This document shows positions 3,725 to 7,299 of a DNA stretch of 17,052 nucleotides, one piece after another (position 1 is the stretch's first letter; each line of letters opens with the position of its first letter). The notes below the pieces were generated by a model that saw only the letters and a list, made by a program, of their open reading frames with translations, ran no database searches and was not told where the DNA came from. The stretch is taken from the NCBI GenBank assembly GCA_020351895.1, contig CP070672.1:3339228-3356279 (forward strand), written 5' to 3'. The translations under genes were made by a program, and so were the position numbers. The DNA is from Thermoplasmata archaeon (GTDB taxonomy: Archaea > Thermoplasmatota > Thermoplasmata > GCA-020350865).

Positions 3725-3937
3725 ATGGATAACACGATGTCTCTTGGTCTATTTGCTCTCGTTGGAGGCGTGGTATTGTATCTTATCAGCGGAACCTTTT
3801 CCCTCATGAATGCTTCTTTTGGGATCCTATTACAGATCTTAGGAGTAGTCCTGATATACGTTGGAATCGCCCTTGTGATGTGGAGTGTTTTGAGTTCGCT
3901 CGATCTGTTTTTAGAAAGATTGGTAAAAAGAAGTTAA
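3725..3937 (+). CDS. Small two-helix membrane protein of unknown function
   Basis: The 70-residue product has two hydrophobic segments, about residues 5-24 and 28-52, and a short basic C-terminal tail ending LVKRS. This predicts a helical hairpin membrane protein with the tail probably in the cytosol. I do not recognise a family. The ATG at 3725 was chosen because GAGATGAT, one mismatch from GAGGTGAT, sits four bases upstream. ATG 3716 and TTG 3692 are alternative in-frame starts. It stands alone between the FKBP gene and the tRNA-Glu region, with its own likely promoter. Confidence 0.6.
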   Translation: MDNTMSLGLFALVGGVVLYLISGTFSLMNASFGILLQILGVVLIYVGIALVMWSVLSSLDLFLERLVKRS

Positions 3938-4002
3938 ATAAGGTGTACTAAAATTTCATTATACTTTTTATTATTCAAATATTAGGAAGAGCATGGCTTA
4001 TT

Positions 4003-4129
4003 ACAATAAAAAATTAAAATGCTCCCGACGGGTGTTTGAGCTTAAGAAATATTTGAAGTCTCATAATAACTCAAACACGAAGTGGGTGCATGGATTGAAA
4101 CAATAAAGAATTATAATGCTCCCGACGGG
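4003..4129. repeat. Direct repeats of tRNA-Glu 3' end and trailer bounding micro-element 1
   Basis: Bases 4003-4032 and 4100-4129 are near-identical 30-base direct repeats with two mismatches and a period of 97 bases. The repeat holds the last 13 bases of the tRNA-Glu gene (seen as TGCTCCCGACGGG on the plus strand) plus about 17 bases of its AT-rich trailer. The copy at 4100-4129 belongs to the intact tRNA; the 4003-4032 copy is a remnant without the rest of the tRNA. Such geometry is what attL/attR of a site-specific integration at a tRNA 3' end looks like. However, only 67 bases lie between the copies and no integrase is nearby. Confidence 0.75.
4032..4078. other. Hairpin of micro-element 1 (variable 9-bp stem, conserved 29-base loop)
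   Basis: GTGTTTGAG at 4032-4040 pairs perfectly with CTCAAACAC at 4070-4078 around a 29-base loop starting CTTAAGAAATA. The hairpin at 6781-6829 has a loop of exactly the same length, identical at 24 of 29 positions, but an unrelated stem that is also perfectly paired. The stem arm next to the tRNA remnant resembles the T-loop complement (ATTTGAAC in the tRNA). Whether it acts as RNA or DNA is unknown. Confidence 0.7.
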
Positions 4130-4211
4130 ATTTGAACCCGTGTCCTTGGCTTTCTCCAGCCAAAGAGACTGCGAGAGGCCAAAATGATTGGCCGGGCTAC
4201 ACTACAGGAGC
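4117..4211 (-). tRNA. tRNA-Glu (anticodon CTC) with 20-base canonical intron
   Basis: The acceptor stem is GCTCCTG with CGGGAGC, the discriminator is A, and CCA is not encoded. The D-arm begins GTGTAGCCCGGCCAATCAT, as in archaeal tRNA-Glu. The anticodon stem is TTGGC/GCCAA and the T-arm is ACGGG-TTCAAAT-CCCGT. The anticodon CTC is at 4173-4175. Removing the intron leaves a normal 75-base tRNA. A TATA-like TTTATTATG at 4238-4247 on the minus strand is a plausible promoter. The trailer and the last 13 bases of the gene are duplicated about 97 bases downstream. Confidence 0.95.
4152..4171 (-). other. tRNA-Glu intron between positions 37 and 38
   Basis: The precursor folds into a full bulge-helix-bulge: outer helix TTGGC/GCCAA, bulge AAA on the 3' side, 4-bp central helix CTCT/GGAG (one G-U), bulge CGC on the 5' side, and inner helix AGTC/GGCT closed by TCTTT. 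Cutting after the second base of each bulge removes exactly 20 bases at the canonical site. The archaeal tRNA splicing endonuclease should process it. Confidence 0.9.
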
Positions 4212-4351
4212 AAATTTATGCCTCTAACATCCTATAGCATAATAAATTTGCGACTTAGTTTTTATTTCTACAGATATACCTTAATCAGCCTGATACTTAA
4301 TGTAATAAATAAAAGTTATTAAGGAAATCTTTAATCTTTCTACATTGACGA

Positions 4352-4519
4352 TCAATCTATCTCAAGGTCGATAGTGTATTTTCCTGGATCTTTTTTCATT
4401 TTTCTCATGAAAGTGAATATTTCGTACAACTCTTTTTCGGAACTGCCGGTTATATTCACGGAAACGGTTTTTTCCCCGTCATTGATGAGTATCTTACCGG
4501 TGCAATCCTTTTCAGCCAT
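4352..4519 (-). CDS. Small 55-residue protein of unknown function
   Basis: The frame begins MAEKDCTGKILINDGEKTVS and ends DPGKYTIDLEID. GGTGAT lies five bases upstream of the ATG, a good archaeal ribosome-binding site. The composition suggests a small soluble alpha/beta protein with beta strands at both ends and a helix (EKELYEIFTFMRKMKK) in the middle. I recognise no family. It follows the 60-residue gene by 66 bases in the same direction and may share its transcript. A 63-residue antisense frame (4374-4565, plus) is hydrophobic and has no ribosome-binding site, so it is treated as a shadow. Confidence 0.6.
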   Translation of the reverse strand: MAEKDCTGKILINDGEKTVSVNITGSSEKELYEIFTFMRKMKKDPGKYTIDLEID

Positions 4520-4585
4520 AATTATCACCAGATTAAAGGCTATGAACGCTATTAAATTTTTCTAAATTATCTTATTCCTTTTAGA

Positions 4586-4768
4586 TCATCCTTCCTTATG
4601 AACCAGTTTGAGCTCTGCGGTTCCAATTGGAAGCTCCACATCCAGATAGACCATGCCTTCGAAGCCGTCATCATCACGGAAAATTATTTTATATTTATCT
4701 CTACCTTCTAATTTAGAGACCTCGGTAATCTCAATAGGCAATGTCTCGCCCAGTGCTATCTTTTTCAT
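4586..4768 (-). CDS. Small 60-residue beta-rich protein of unknown function
   Basis: The frame runs from MKKIALGETLPIEITEVSKL to ELKLVHKEG. Alternating hydrophobic and charged residues predict a small all-beta or mostly beta domain. No family is recognised and no membrane segment is present. The ATG at 4768 was chosen over the upstream in-frame TTG at 4780; GGGTGT precedes it at short distance. A TTTAAAATA box near 4800 on the minus strand would give a leader of about 10 bases. It is the first gene of a probable two-gene unit with the 55-residue protein. Confidence 0.6.
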   Translation of the reverse strand: MKKIALGETLPIEITEVSKLEGRDKYKIIFRDDDGFEGMVYLDVELPIGTAELKLVHKEG

Positions 4769-4780
4769 ATAGACACCCAA

Positions 4781-5107
4781 GGAGTGATTGTTATCAACTT
4801 ATTTTAAAGATTTGTTGTAAAAGGCCACCTTTGCCCCTCAATATCTTTTTATCTTTGATATATCCCCACCATCTTCATCATTAATACCTGAATTACCCAC
4901 CACCAATTCCCCCTCCTCCCACCCTAATAATCCGTCATTTATGCACCATATTCTCATCCATTTTCAAAGTTTTCTCTATCCTCACCATCAACCGGGTTTT
5001 TTATTAATAGATAGAAAGGATATCTATCATTGAAAAATCTCCATGACATAATCGAAAATTACTTAATACCAAAACGGCTTTTGCCCAAACATAACGGGGG
5101 GACCTAC
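4781..5107. other. Gene-free divergent region with C-rich stretch
   Basis: No credible gene is seen here. It separates divergent transcription units: the small-protein pair on the left and the aminopeptidase on the right. A pyrimidine stretch at 4909-4924 (CCCCCTCCTCCCACCC on the plus strand) would read as four G-runs on the minus strand. TTTATTAATAG near 5000-5010 is a possible TATA box for the aminopeptidase, giving a leader of about 75 bases. ACGGGGGGACC at 5094-5104 precedes the ATG. Confidence 0.5.
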
Positions 5108-6535
5108 ATGGCTAAAAAGAAAATCAAAAAATCGAAATTGGAGGAGAAACTTTCCAGGAAACATGAATTGGTATGGGACAAGCTCAGTGAAAAGGAGAAA
5201 AAAGCTGCTTTCAAATTTTCCCAAGACTATATGAATTTCATGGGCATAGCAAAGACTGAAAGAGAGGCCGTGGTGGAGATTATAAAATTCGCCGAGAAAA
5301 ATGGATTCAAATCAATAGAGAAGGTTAAGGGTCCAAAACCAGGATCAAGGATTTATATAACAAATAGAAACAAGAATATTGCGTTGATTATTCTCGGGTC
5401 CGAACCCATAGACAATGGTGTGAAGATCATTGCATCTCATATCGACGCTCCTCGGCTGGATCTGAAGCAGAATCCGTTATACGAGGATGATGATACGAAG
5501 CTGGCTTTGTTCAAAACGCATTATTACGGTGGAATAAAAAAATATCAGTGGGTCAATCAGCCATTGGCTGTGCATGGGCGAGTTGTGAAAGAGGATGGCA
5601 GCACTGTTGATATAATCATTGGTGAGGATCCCAAAGAACCGGCTTTTACGATAACAGATTTGGAGCCGCATCTGTACCACAAGACACAGGCTAAAAGGCG
5701 ACTTCCAGAGGGAATCAAAGGCGAAGAGTTGAATGTCCTTGTGGGTAGCGTCCCAGTAAAAGATAAAGATGCTAAATCTAAGATCAAGCTCTGGGTGCTG
5801 GACCATCTCAATAAAAAATATGGTATAGTGGAGGAGGATTTCACCACAGCCGAGCTGGAAATCGTACCTGCGGGATCCCCTAGGGACATAGGCTTTGATT
5901 CCAGCATGGTTGGTGCCTATGGCCAGGACGACAGGATTTGCGCCTATACATCAATGGCAGCCATAGCTGCCCTGAAAAGACCGAAAAAAACCGCCATTGC
6001 ATTGTTTTTTGACAAGGAGGAAATAGGTAGTGAAGGTAATACTGGTGTCAAGTCCAGGTTTCTTGAAAACTTGATAGGCGAACTCATCGAACTTACAACA
6101 CCTGATTACAGGGATAGCATGTTGAGAAGAGCATTGTCAAGGTCCCAAGCCCTTTCTTCAGATGTTACTGGTGGTGTAAATCCCAATTACAAGGACGTGC
6201 ATGAGATAAAAAATGCGCCTAAGGTGGGTTACGGTTTAGTAATAACGAAATTCACAGGTGCGGGGGGTAAATATTCCTCCAGTGATGCCAATGCCGAGTA
6301 CATTGGTGAGCTTCGGCGCCTCTTCAACAAGAACAAAGTCCCCTGGCAGACAGGTGAATTGGGAAAGGTTGATGAGGGTGGGGGAGGAACCATTGCGAAG
6401 TTCTTGGCCGAGCACAACATGGAGGTTGTGGATTGCGGTCCGGCATTGTTAAGCCTACATGCTCCTTTTGAGGTGGCGAGTAAGGCCGACTTGTATTCCA
6501 CTTACCTGGGCTACAAGGTGTTTTACAGTGCCTGA
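5108..6535 (+). CDS. M18 family zinc aminopeptidase
   Basis: The 475-residue product is a cytosolic metalloaminopeptidase of the M18 (aspartyl aminopeptidase / aminopeptidase I) family, which trims N-terminal residues from peptides with a two-metal centre. Metal-site motifs occur in order: ASHIDAPRLD (His111), GAYGQDDR (Asp274), FFDKEEIGSEG (Glu304-Glu305), SSDVTGGVNP (Asp352) and LSLHAPFE (His451). The insert between 115 and 250 fits the family's dimerisation domain, and the length is normal. The ATG at 5108 was chosen because G6 lies six bases upstream; the TTG at 5030 would add 26 residues with no ribosome-binding site. A lysine-rich first 12 residues is slightly unusual. A small 65-residue gene follows after 22 bases and is probably in the same operon. 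The preferred N-terminal residue cannot be read from sequence. Confidence 0.93.
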   Translation: MAKKKIKKSKLEEKLSRKHELVWDKLSEKEKKAAFKFSQDYMNFMGIAKTEREAVVEIIKFAEKNGFKSIEKVKGPKPGSRIYITNRNKNIALIILGSEPIDNGVKIIASHIDAPRLDLKQNPLYEDDDTKLALFKTHYYGGIKKYQWVNQPLAVHGRVVKEDGSTVDIIIGEDPKEPAFTITDLEPHLYHKTQAKRRLPEGIKGEELNVLVGSVPVKDKDAKSKIKLWVLDHLNKKYGIVEEDFTTAELEIVPAGSPRDIGFDSSMVGAYGQDDRICAYTSMAAIAALKRPKKTAIALFFDKEEIGSEGNTGVKSRFLENLIGELIELTTPDYRDSMLRRALSRSQALSSDVTGGVNPNYKDVHEIKNAPKVGYGLVITKFTGAGGKYSSSDANAEYIGELRRLFNKNKVPWQTGELGKVDEGGGGTIAKFLAEHNMEVVDCGPALLSLHAPFEVASKADLYSTYLGYKVFYSA

Positions 6536-6557
6536 TTATTAAAAGGTCGAAGATAGC

Positions 6558-6755
6558 ATGAACATTGATGAGATTTTTGAGGAGATTCTTCCTTATCTTT
6601 CCGATCCTAATGGAATCAAGGAATTCCTTAAGGCCCATGAGGAGAGCAGCATTGATGGGGTGATAGAGGACATAAACAAGTTGTTACCCGAGGCGGATGT
6701 ACCTTTTAAAACCGATTTACGAATTCTTTTAAATGCACTTTTGAAACGATCATGA
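6558..6755 (+). CDS. Small 65-residue acidic helical protein of unknown function
   Basis: The product starts MNIDEIFEEILPYLSDPNGI and ends LLNALLKRS. It appears entirely alpha-helical, with two or three amphipathic helices and no membrane segment. It lies 22 bases downstream of the aminopeptidase gene on the same strand, and AAAAGGT precedes the ATG at a longish spacing. Co-transcription is likely. I recognise no family, and a role as an aminopeptidase partner would be speculation. The distal direct repeat of micro-element 2 begins only five bases after its stop. Confidence 0.6.
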   Translation: MNIDEIFEEILPYLSDPNGIKEFLKAHEESSIDGVIEDINKLLPEADVPFKTDLRILLNALLKRS

Positions 6756-6780
6756 TTTTATAAATAAGATAATAGCGGGG

Positions 6781-6829
6781 GATTGCGAAGCTTAAGAAAT
6801 AATTGATGTCCAATCATAACTTCGCAATC
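6781..6829. other. Hairpin of micro-element 2 (variable 10-bp stem, conserved 29-base loop)
   Basis: GATTGCGAAG at 6781-6790 pairs perfectly with CTTCGCAATC at 6820-6829. The 29-base loop starts CTTAAGAAATAATTGATGTC and is identical at 24 of 29 positions to the loop at 4041-4069. The stem sequence is unlike that of the other copy, yet both are fully paired, so structure is conserved where sequence is not. As in the first copy, the hairpin abuts the tRNA 3'-end remnant. Confidence 0.7.
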
Positions 6830-6872
6830 GGATGAAAGGAGATCACAAACATTCTAATATTACCTTTCATCC
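6830..6872. repeat. Second hairpin in micro-element 2
   Basis: GGATGAAAGG at 6830-6839 is perfectly complementary to CCTTTCATCC at 6863-6872, with a 23-base loop. It starts directly after the first hairpin. Micro-element 1 has no equivalent, which accounts for part of the length difference between the two elements. Confidence 0.6.
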
Positions 6873-6884
6873 CATCCAAGCTGA

Positions 6885-6900
6885 AAAAAGTTTTTTTTTT
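6885..6900. terminator. A6-G-T10 tract, likely bidirectional terminator
   Basis: AAAAAAG followed by ten T residues lies downstream of the aminopeptidase unit on the plus strand. Read on the minus strand it gives six T residues beyond the tRNA trailer. Archaeal RNA polymerase terminates at T-runs, so this could end transcripts arriving from both sides. Confidence 0.5.
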
Positions 6901-6951
6901 ATAAATTAAATAATAATACAAGAAAAATAACTACAAGTGATAAATAAGTAA

Positions 6952-7074
6952 TAGCGGGGGATAGATTTGAACTATCGATCTACGGGTTATGAGCCCGTCG
7001 GGATATCAGGCCGAAGGCATGATACAAAGAGGTATCGCATAAGCCTCGCGGTTTCCTGGCTACCCCACCCCGCT
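6952..7074 (-). tRNA. Initiator tRNA-Met (CAT) with 48-base D-loop intron
   Basis: The acceptor stem AGCGGGG/CCCCGCT with an A1-U72 pair, and an anticodon stem ACGGG/CCCGT with three consecutive G-C pairs next to the loop CTCATAA, are the marks of an archaeal initiator tRNA. The anticodon CAT lies at 6989-6991. The T-arm is GATAG-TTCAAAT-CTATC, the discriminator is A, and CCA is not encoded. The gene is 123 bases; removing a 48-base D-loop intron gives a normal 75-base tRNA with D-arm GGGTAGCCAGGAAATCCC. The 5' end is only six bases from the stop codon of the upstream winged-helix gene, with no TATA box between, so the tRNA may be processed from that transcript. Confidence 0.93.
7005..7052 (-). 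other. Non-canonical intron in the D-loop of initiator tRNA
   Basis: Central helix CAGG/CCTG is flanked by bulges AAA (5') and ATA (3'), with an inner helix CCG/CGG continuing through GAGGC/GCCTT and an apical stem GATAC/GTATC. Cutting after the second base of each bulge removes exactly 48 bases and restores a consensus initiator D-arm. The outer helix next to the bulges is weak; the D-stem lies a few bases away. This implies a splicing endonuclease with relaxed substrate range. Confidence 0.85.
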
Positions 7075-7080
7075 ATAAGA

Positions 7081-7299
7081 TCACTCTGCCGCGATTCTCA
7101 GGCCACCGTCCTTGTAGTATATCCATACCTTGTCTTTTAGGTGTTTTGTGAGATTGGCTAATGATTCGTAGACTGCGCTCTCTTCAACACCAAGGGATTT
7201 TGCAGCGTCAGCTGTGGACCACTTGTTGGTTTCGAAGTTATTGAGCTTTATGTATTCATAAAGCCTTTTGTCAAGGTCACTCAAATCTTCCTGTGCCAT
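7081..7299 (-). CDS. Small winged-helix DNA-binding protein
   Basis: The 72-residue product is essentially one winged-helix fold. A first helix (DLDKRLYEYIKLN) is followed by STADAAKSLGVEESAVYESLANL, which reads as helix-turn-recognition helix, and then VWIYYKDGGLRIAAE as the wing. It probably acts as a dimeric transcription regulator or a component of a larger complex; targets are unknown. The ATG has no ribosome-binding site. A TATA box at 7331-7340 would start transcription about 10 bases upstream, so translation is probably near-leaderless. The gene ends six bases before the initiator tRNA, suggesting a joint transcript. Confidence 0.75.
   Translation of the reverse strand: MAQEDLSDLDKRLYEYIKLNNFETNKWSTADAAKSLGVEESAVYESLANLTKHLKDKVWIYYKDGGLRIAAE

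Follow-up and report, generated by a model that had tools for sequence, protein, structure and literature searches.

Hairpin units nested behind archaeal tRNA genes: a candidate archaeal variant of the tRNA-linked repeats of Escherichia coli

Introduction

Why should two hairpins with unrelated stems share nearly the same loop, each of them close behind a tRNA gene? The question is raised by a 17,052-nt stretch of a Thermoplasmata archaeon genome (contig CP070672.1; hereafter the window), in which both tRNAs detected, a tRNA-Glu and an initiator tRNA-Met (iMet), carry a hairpin and a copy of their own 3′ end, or tail, downstream on the minus strand. On balance, we consider it probable that these hairpins are the cores of tRNA-nested hairpin cassettes, an archaeal variant of the tRNA-linked repeats (TLRs) of E. 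coli, which would be transcribed and cut together with the tRNA and gained or lost through their tails. The feature is real and non-random; it represents the archaeal form of a kind of element that is already known yet still unexplained. Speaking for it are the recurrent layout of the units, their locus-specific tails, covarying base pairs, near-identical cores at different tRNAs, and one pair of genomes that differ by the presence or absence of a unit.

TLRs were first described in E. coli in 1978 and have been little understood since. According to a 2021 study (PMC8144298), E. coli has 22 TLRs at ten loci, one to five at each, located behind a tRNA or rRNA gene, and the 3′ end of the repeat comprises 18-19 bp identical to the end of the upstream gene. 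By the same account, TLRs had no known function before that study of three 5S-linked TLRs, which yield RNAs binding Hfq and CsrA, and its authors propose that the repeated TLR end is a processing signal (PMC8144298). An earlier, sequence-only reading of the window knew of no named element to which the hairpins could be assigned; the E. coli TLRs, also called rttR or RtT (Rfam RF00391), do match their layout.

Hairpins and tail copies in the window

All window features given here lie on the minus strand. Core hairpin 1 (4032-4078) has a perfect 9-bp stem, GTGTTTGAG/CTCAAACAC, around a conserved 29-nt loop (4041-4069), and core hairpin 2 (6781-6829) has a perfect 10-bp stem, GATTGCGAAG/CTTCGCAATC, around its 29-nt counterpart (6791-6819). 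The loops are identical at 24 of 29 bases and the stems at 3 of the 9 positions aligned. Two matches to the loop pattern lie in the window, against a mean of 0.00 across 200 shuffles.

The first unit follows the tRNA-Glu gene (4117-4211). It comprises a linker (L, 4092-4116), a candidate 5′ arm (T′, 4079-4091) that pairs weakly with the tail copy, core hairpin 1, and the tail copy itself (T, 4020-4032), which adjoins the hairpin and overlaps its stem by one base. The linker resembles the stretch that comes after the tail copy (3991-4018), and a 42-nt direct repeat (3991-4032 and 4088-4129, 86% identical) spans the tail with about 28 nt of flank. The arms of the unit, taken as 4019-4040 and 4070-4091, are 22 nt long and 73% complementary.

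The second unit follows the tRNA-iMet gene (6951-7075), whose tail, TAATAGCGGGGGAT, occurs exactly at 6949-6962 and again at 6770-6783. This 14-nt copy overlaps the stem of core hairpin 2 by three bases. Directly adjoining the latter is a second hairpin (HP2, 6830-6872) with a perfect 10-bp stem, GGATGAAAGG/CCTTTCATCC, and a 23-nt loop. A candidate 5′ arm, AGCTTGG (6876-6882), is partly complementary to the tail copy and closes the junction in the minimum free energy fold; between it and the gene we place a linker (6883-6949), with its boundary inferred. The tail copies in the window are spaced 97 and 179 bp apart.

The sequence-only reading had described the two core hairpins accurately in coordinates, stems and loops, as well as their position against a remnant of the neighbouring tRNA 3′ end (the 42-nt repeat at Glu, the exact 14 nt at iMet). 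HP2 was absent from it. Its suggestion that the inner stem arm resembles the T-loop complement of the tRNA did not survive, as 11% and 22% of shuffles score equally high.

Own-tail copies in a related genome

A search of relatives for the iMet and Glu loci (30 and 18 genomes asked, with matches in 11 and 10) brought up one genome, G057, that was picked out by eye. Its tRNA loci gave 32 Rfam matches, of which 30 were fetched and read out. An own-tail copy was defined as a 12-nt match, one mismatch allowed, in the 320 nt downstream of a tRNA, in 34 stretches, several of which end at contig ends. Such copies are found at 14 of the 34 loci, against 6/1072 when these stretches are compared with tails from other tRNAs (Fisher p ~1e-18). 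At 85 other tRNA loci, mostly archaeal with a few bacterial, the corresponding figures are 1/85 and 28/6456 (3e-8 for G057 versus these loci). The 320 nt upstream of the G057 tRNAs hold an own-tail copy, under the same mismatch limit, at 0/34 loci.

Units in G057 share the order T-L-T′-C-T: tail, linker, inverted tail, hairpin core and tail. The linker is about 30 nt long and similar across loci (AAATTAACCAA-type). Tail copies are in many cases exact; divergence has accumulated in linkers and T′. At seven loci the tail copies are spaced 93-108 bp apart, and at Gly-CCC, Arg-CCG and iMet the units form tandem arrays. Integration classically leaves a displaced tRNA 3′ fragment behind, and such a fragment is what one would expect if the units were remnants of large integrative elements, such as a virus or plasmid, that had left a far copy of the tail. 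The narrow spacing and tandem arrays in G057 argue against such an origin, as do the short distances between the window copies; further, the Glu unit has no match among plasmids and the iMet unit none among phages. We regard this origin as disfavoured and very improbable.

The inverted arm is specific to its locus in a majority of units: in 12 of 20, the unit's own T′ ranks in the top 5% against other tails, and 10 of these 12 also reach p≤0.05 against shuffles. Among the six tRNAs compared, the T-stem contains a G-U pair in two, Thr-CGT and Cys; both of their arms match the complement of the tail and not the 5′ strand of the tRNA.

Covarying stems and shared cores

Two window copies are too few for the test of stem covariation that the sequence-only reading had proposed. 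It was run on seven G057 units of one type (type 1, ATRNGGCCAAT-hairpin-ATTAG), aligned with the variable loop trimmed; the two Ser units among them are nearly identical. The pairs do covary. Across 22 pairs, 89.6% of 154 cells are paired, and 13 of the 22 pairs have changed on both sides. The covariation score is 0.602, compared with 0.214 (sd 0.036) for shuffled alignments, of which 0/500 score as high, and at most 0.232 when the alignments are slid. The weakest covariation measure, that of further pair types, was reached by 6/500 shuffles. Since the arms are copies of local tails, some of this covariation is to be expected. Change on both sides is also seen in four inner pairs (columns 16-43, 24-35, 25-34 and 26-33), which lie outside the tail.

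Cores are shared between loci. The type-1 cores at Thr-CGT and iMet are identical at 39 of 41 positions, with agreement at 3/12 positions in T and 4/12 in T′. In a second kind of G057 core, type A, the loop is conserved (AG...TTCG) and the perfect 9-10-bp stems vary, the same principle as in the window hairpins. The G057 sequence available contains 13 type-A hairpins, 7 of them within 434 nt behind a tRNA. A covariance model trained on the seven type-1 units (R2) finds matches in 1/389 genomes of the phylum, G057 itself, where its eight matches are the seven training units and one other.

These observations bear on the idea that the units are decayed tandem duplicates of tRNA genes, in which the end was duplicated, the middle was lost and the stems were kept perfect by template switching, without any function. 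Quasi-palindrome correction within a hairpin can keep stems perfect without selection, which would explain that feature. In the window Glu unit, linker and tail have been duplicated together, and one Glu unit of G057 keeps both the 5′ end and the tail of the tRNA. Decay does not account for near-identical cores at different tRNAs, for conserved loops on changing stems, for arms that match the tail complement rather than the 5′ strands of the tRNA, or for a layout that returns in other genomes. We consider this explanation quite unlikely.

Other archaeal genomes and a 73-bp difference

A doubled iMet tail is present in 4/389 genomes of the phylum (G057, G085, G351 and G247), a lower bound because the survey used one tRNA, exact ends and one spacing range; it would miss the window's own iMet unit, with its spacing of 179 bp. 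At this locus there are two units in G085, one in G247 and three in G351, where the final unit has a truncated tail. Inverted arms in these three genomes were read by eye only.

G348 lacks the G247 unit. The two iMet loci differ by a clean 73-bp presence or absence, with the tail as direct repeat, and downstream of the site 563 of 599 aligned positions are identical. Together with the locus-specific tails of G057, this pair upholds the sequence-only reading's notion of a tRNA-linked micro-element.

The exact window loop did not recur in the collections searched. No copy was found in viral contigs, and none, with 21 bases fixed, in a contig collection of 84,980 species. Allowing up to three mismatches gave one match among 80 genomes of one class and two among 389 of the phylum, one of them common to both sets. 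We rejected both as chance matches, as each has three mismatches and no paired stem. A covariance model built from the window's two copies only (R1) returned these training copies and four weak matches (E 0.38-2.8) in 12 sources, and no match in 3 further genomes. The sequence-only reading had named a lack of further copies as counting against it; in the collections searched, the 29-base loop with its stem indeed has none, and what returns elsewhere is the architecture.

Likeness to tRNA-linked repeats and other systems

The archaeal units resemble TLRs in lying behind a tRNA gene, with one to five units per locus, and in having a 3′ end that copies the end of that tRNA. This holds for 2/2 units in the window, at 14/34 loci in G057, and at iMet in G085, G351 and G247. 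In E. coli K-12, a tail copy precedes the next tRNA at 8 of 36 tRNA genes examined. A ninth gene, argQ, is outside this count as its stretch was cut off, and it too shows a tail copy. K-12 loci also have a linker and a structured core, and the spacing of the lys units, 98-100 bp, is like that of the archaeal units.

Of 10 E. coli units, 6 have a specific T′, with the local inverted tail outscoring each of the 15-16 other tails. Three of these 6 stand in tandem behind tyrV (GGGGAAGGAT versus ATCCTTCCCC). At lysW (CGTGTAGGAT), 9 of 10 positions agree, and T′ and T close the hairpins into which the argV unit folds. We found no description of a T′ arm in TLRs in a limited literature whose scope did not extend to the older TLR papers, and consequently make no claim of priority. 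The suggestion in the sequence-only reading that stems are tuned to the adjacent tRNA fits these E. coli units and 12/20 G057 units, in each of which an inverted local tail lies upstream of the core, and neither of the two window units.

The likeness to TLRs has limits. Archaeal tail copies are about 13-17 nt long, compared with 18-19 bp in E. coli according to PMC8144298; 3 nt of this difference arise because most archaeal tails lack an encoded CCA. Core sequences differ, and units accompany a large share of the tRNAs in G057. At the gathering score, the Rfam RtT model gives 7 matches in two E. coli loci and 0 in 9 archaeal loci, and at E≤5 it has no match in window positions 3900-7100. The model is narrow, as it misses the E. 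coli arg locus too. On the sequences compared, we detect no kinship between archaeal units and TLRs.

Three other systems invite comparison. Integron attC sites carry the boxes R″ (RYYYAAC) and R′ (GTTRRRY). Like attC sites, the archaeal units occur in tandem and conserve hairpin shape more than sequence; unlike them, they carry no genes and their ends match a tRNA. A search for both boxes on both strands found them in 0/8 units, and identity with attC was rejected. Integrative elements that target tRNA genes are flanked on both sides by a direct repeat of the tRNA 3′ end. The archaeal units, at about 70-180 bp and often with an inner inverted tail, are too small for an integrase. Bacterial palindromic repeats such as REP are short, hairpin-forming and numerous within a genome. 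The archaeal units differ in that each ends in a copy of the tail of its own neighbouring tRNA.

Origin and use of the units

How might such units work? In the reading that we favour, a cassette lies on the same strand behind its tRNA. It begins with a linker, often followed by a 5′ arm made of the inverted tail, then has a structured core, and finishes with a copy of the tail, comprising the 3′ strand of the T-stem, the 3′ strand of the acceptor stem and usually the discriminator base. On folding, arm and tail restore a helix like that of acceptor and T-stem, which closes over the core. The layout, taken with the E. coli TLRs, suggests that the unit may be co-transcribed with its tRNA, and that the tRNA 3′-end machinery, in archaea RNase Z, could cut at the copied tail to release a small hairpin RNA. 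RNase Z accepts acceptor/T-arm minihelices. Units would multiply or vanish through their repeated tails, as the tandem arrays and the 73-bp pair suggest, and the near-identical cores at different tRNAs point to movement of cores between loci.

Several findings weigh against the cassette reading. The window's core loop has not been seen beyond the window, and the window's T′ arms do not stand out significantly from other tails (12/29 other tails score as high for Glu and 6/29 for iMet). For this reason no T′ is claimed for the window, though its folds close with the tail, and its membership in a TLR-like class rests on tail copies and hairpin logic, without shared sequence or T′. By the same tests as above, a specific T′ is missing in 8/20 units of G057 and in 4/10 of E. 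coli. Six of the 13 type-A hairpins are away from any detected tRNA, and the eighth type-1 match (locus L187, contig C109 of G057, 5751-5826) is at the end of a contig, where the 112 nt available contain no tRNA. The upstream flanks of G247 and G348 align over a short stretch only, and a deletion between repeats may account for the 73 bp by which they differ. Lastly, the sense strand folds to lower energy than the antisense strand in 12/19 units, short of the clear difference that one would expect from selection on RNA, and two units, both at elongator tRNA-Met (eMet) genes, fold little better than shuffles.

Fold energies do not separate an RNA reading from a DNA one. In the main rival, the units are recombination cassettes acting at the DNA level: tiny integrated elements for which the tRNA tail is the attachment site, and in which the folded T′-C-T would mimic a double-stranded tail for a recombinase. 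Folded single-strand sites are used in this way by recombinases in integrons and by the CTX phage. Consistent with it, many tail copies have stayed exact while linkers and T′ drifted, units stand in tandem arrays at Gly-CCC, Arg-CCG and iMet, the 73-bp difference has the tail as direct repeat, near-identical cores sit at different tRNAs, and both strands fold about equally well. The missing attC-type boxes and the shortness of the units, which leaves no room for genes, count against it. We hold this alternative to be possible, if rather unlikely.

A more speculative and unlikely proposal is that of hairpin loops mobile across domains, in which a conserved loop would spread by inserting itself at the tip of single-stranded DNA that folds into hairpins, chiefly the acceptor/T-arm of a tRNA tail, with the arms rebuilt on local sequence. 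If true, it would explain conserved loops on unrelated perfect stems, locally inverted tails, nested hairpins and the tRNA-free copies in G057.

A layout shared by several archaea and E. coli, with near-identical cores at different loci and, in archaea and bacteria alike, some units whose T′ matches the local tRNA, makes these units a candidate class. Archaeal units make both their origin, site-specific insertion or duplication, and their use, as processed RNA or recombination site, testable in sister species such as G247 and G348 and in E. coli K-12.

Further observations

Within G057, one Glu unit is located upstream of its tRNA, with two mismatches in the tail. A unit between tRNA-Gln and tRNA-Glu (L163/L164) retains the Glu 5′ end (15 nt) and tail, with a hairpin in place of the middle, upstream of an intact tRNA-Glu. 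The linker motif AATTAACCAA occurs near the ends of three G057 contigs (L187, L194 and L260), and consequently arrays may break the assembly and be under-counted. The L187 unit is of Ser type, yet its upstream 112 nt are not tRNA-Ser; it is either a relocated copy or an assembly chimera. Among the six tRNA-free type-A hairpins, two belong to an array that has Ala-type tails but no tRNA, and the others lie among hairpin-rich repeats. Type-A hairpins distant from tRNAs, partly in tandem, are at L259 (from 1933), L280 (145-216), L310 (5212) and L311 (4851). The paired hairpins before the window's iMet tail copy look like type-A units.

As far as sequence comparison can tell, the window's proteins point to Thermoplasmata-type archaea and have no close relative among the genomes compared. 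Its UMP kinase reaches at most 46% identity among the best 80 loci, and its MtnA at most 68% among the matches listed in the 389 genomes; the top-scoring match of its M18 aminopeptidase is in G057 (556 bits, 52%). The gene for this aminopeptidase adjoins tRNA-iMet in the window, and a tRNA neighbour is present at 0/30 M18 loci of relatives. Rfam finds only tRNA in the window at its cut-off, and E≤5 adds two snoRNA models far below cut-off. A C/D-box RNA was set aside, with no D box discernible by eye.

The tRNA at 4117-4211 is the sole Rfam match above cut-off in the window. ARAGORN left its type open; its isotype and anticodon (Glu, CUC) and the placement of an intron in the anticodon loop were read by hand. 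The tRNA-iMet gene was likewise read by hand and has about 45-50 nt inserted in its D-arm region, probably the reason why its match (6952-7012) scores 28.7, below the Rfam cut-off of 29. This insertion resembles a non-canonical intron. In G363 (L127), too, the iMet gene has an insertion at a similar place, and in the initiator tRNA of G351 (L324), which ARAGORN called tRNA-Ser, an insertion lies near the anticodon.

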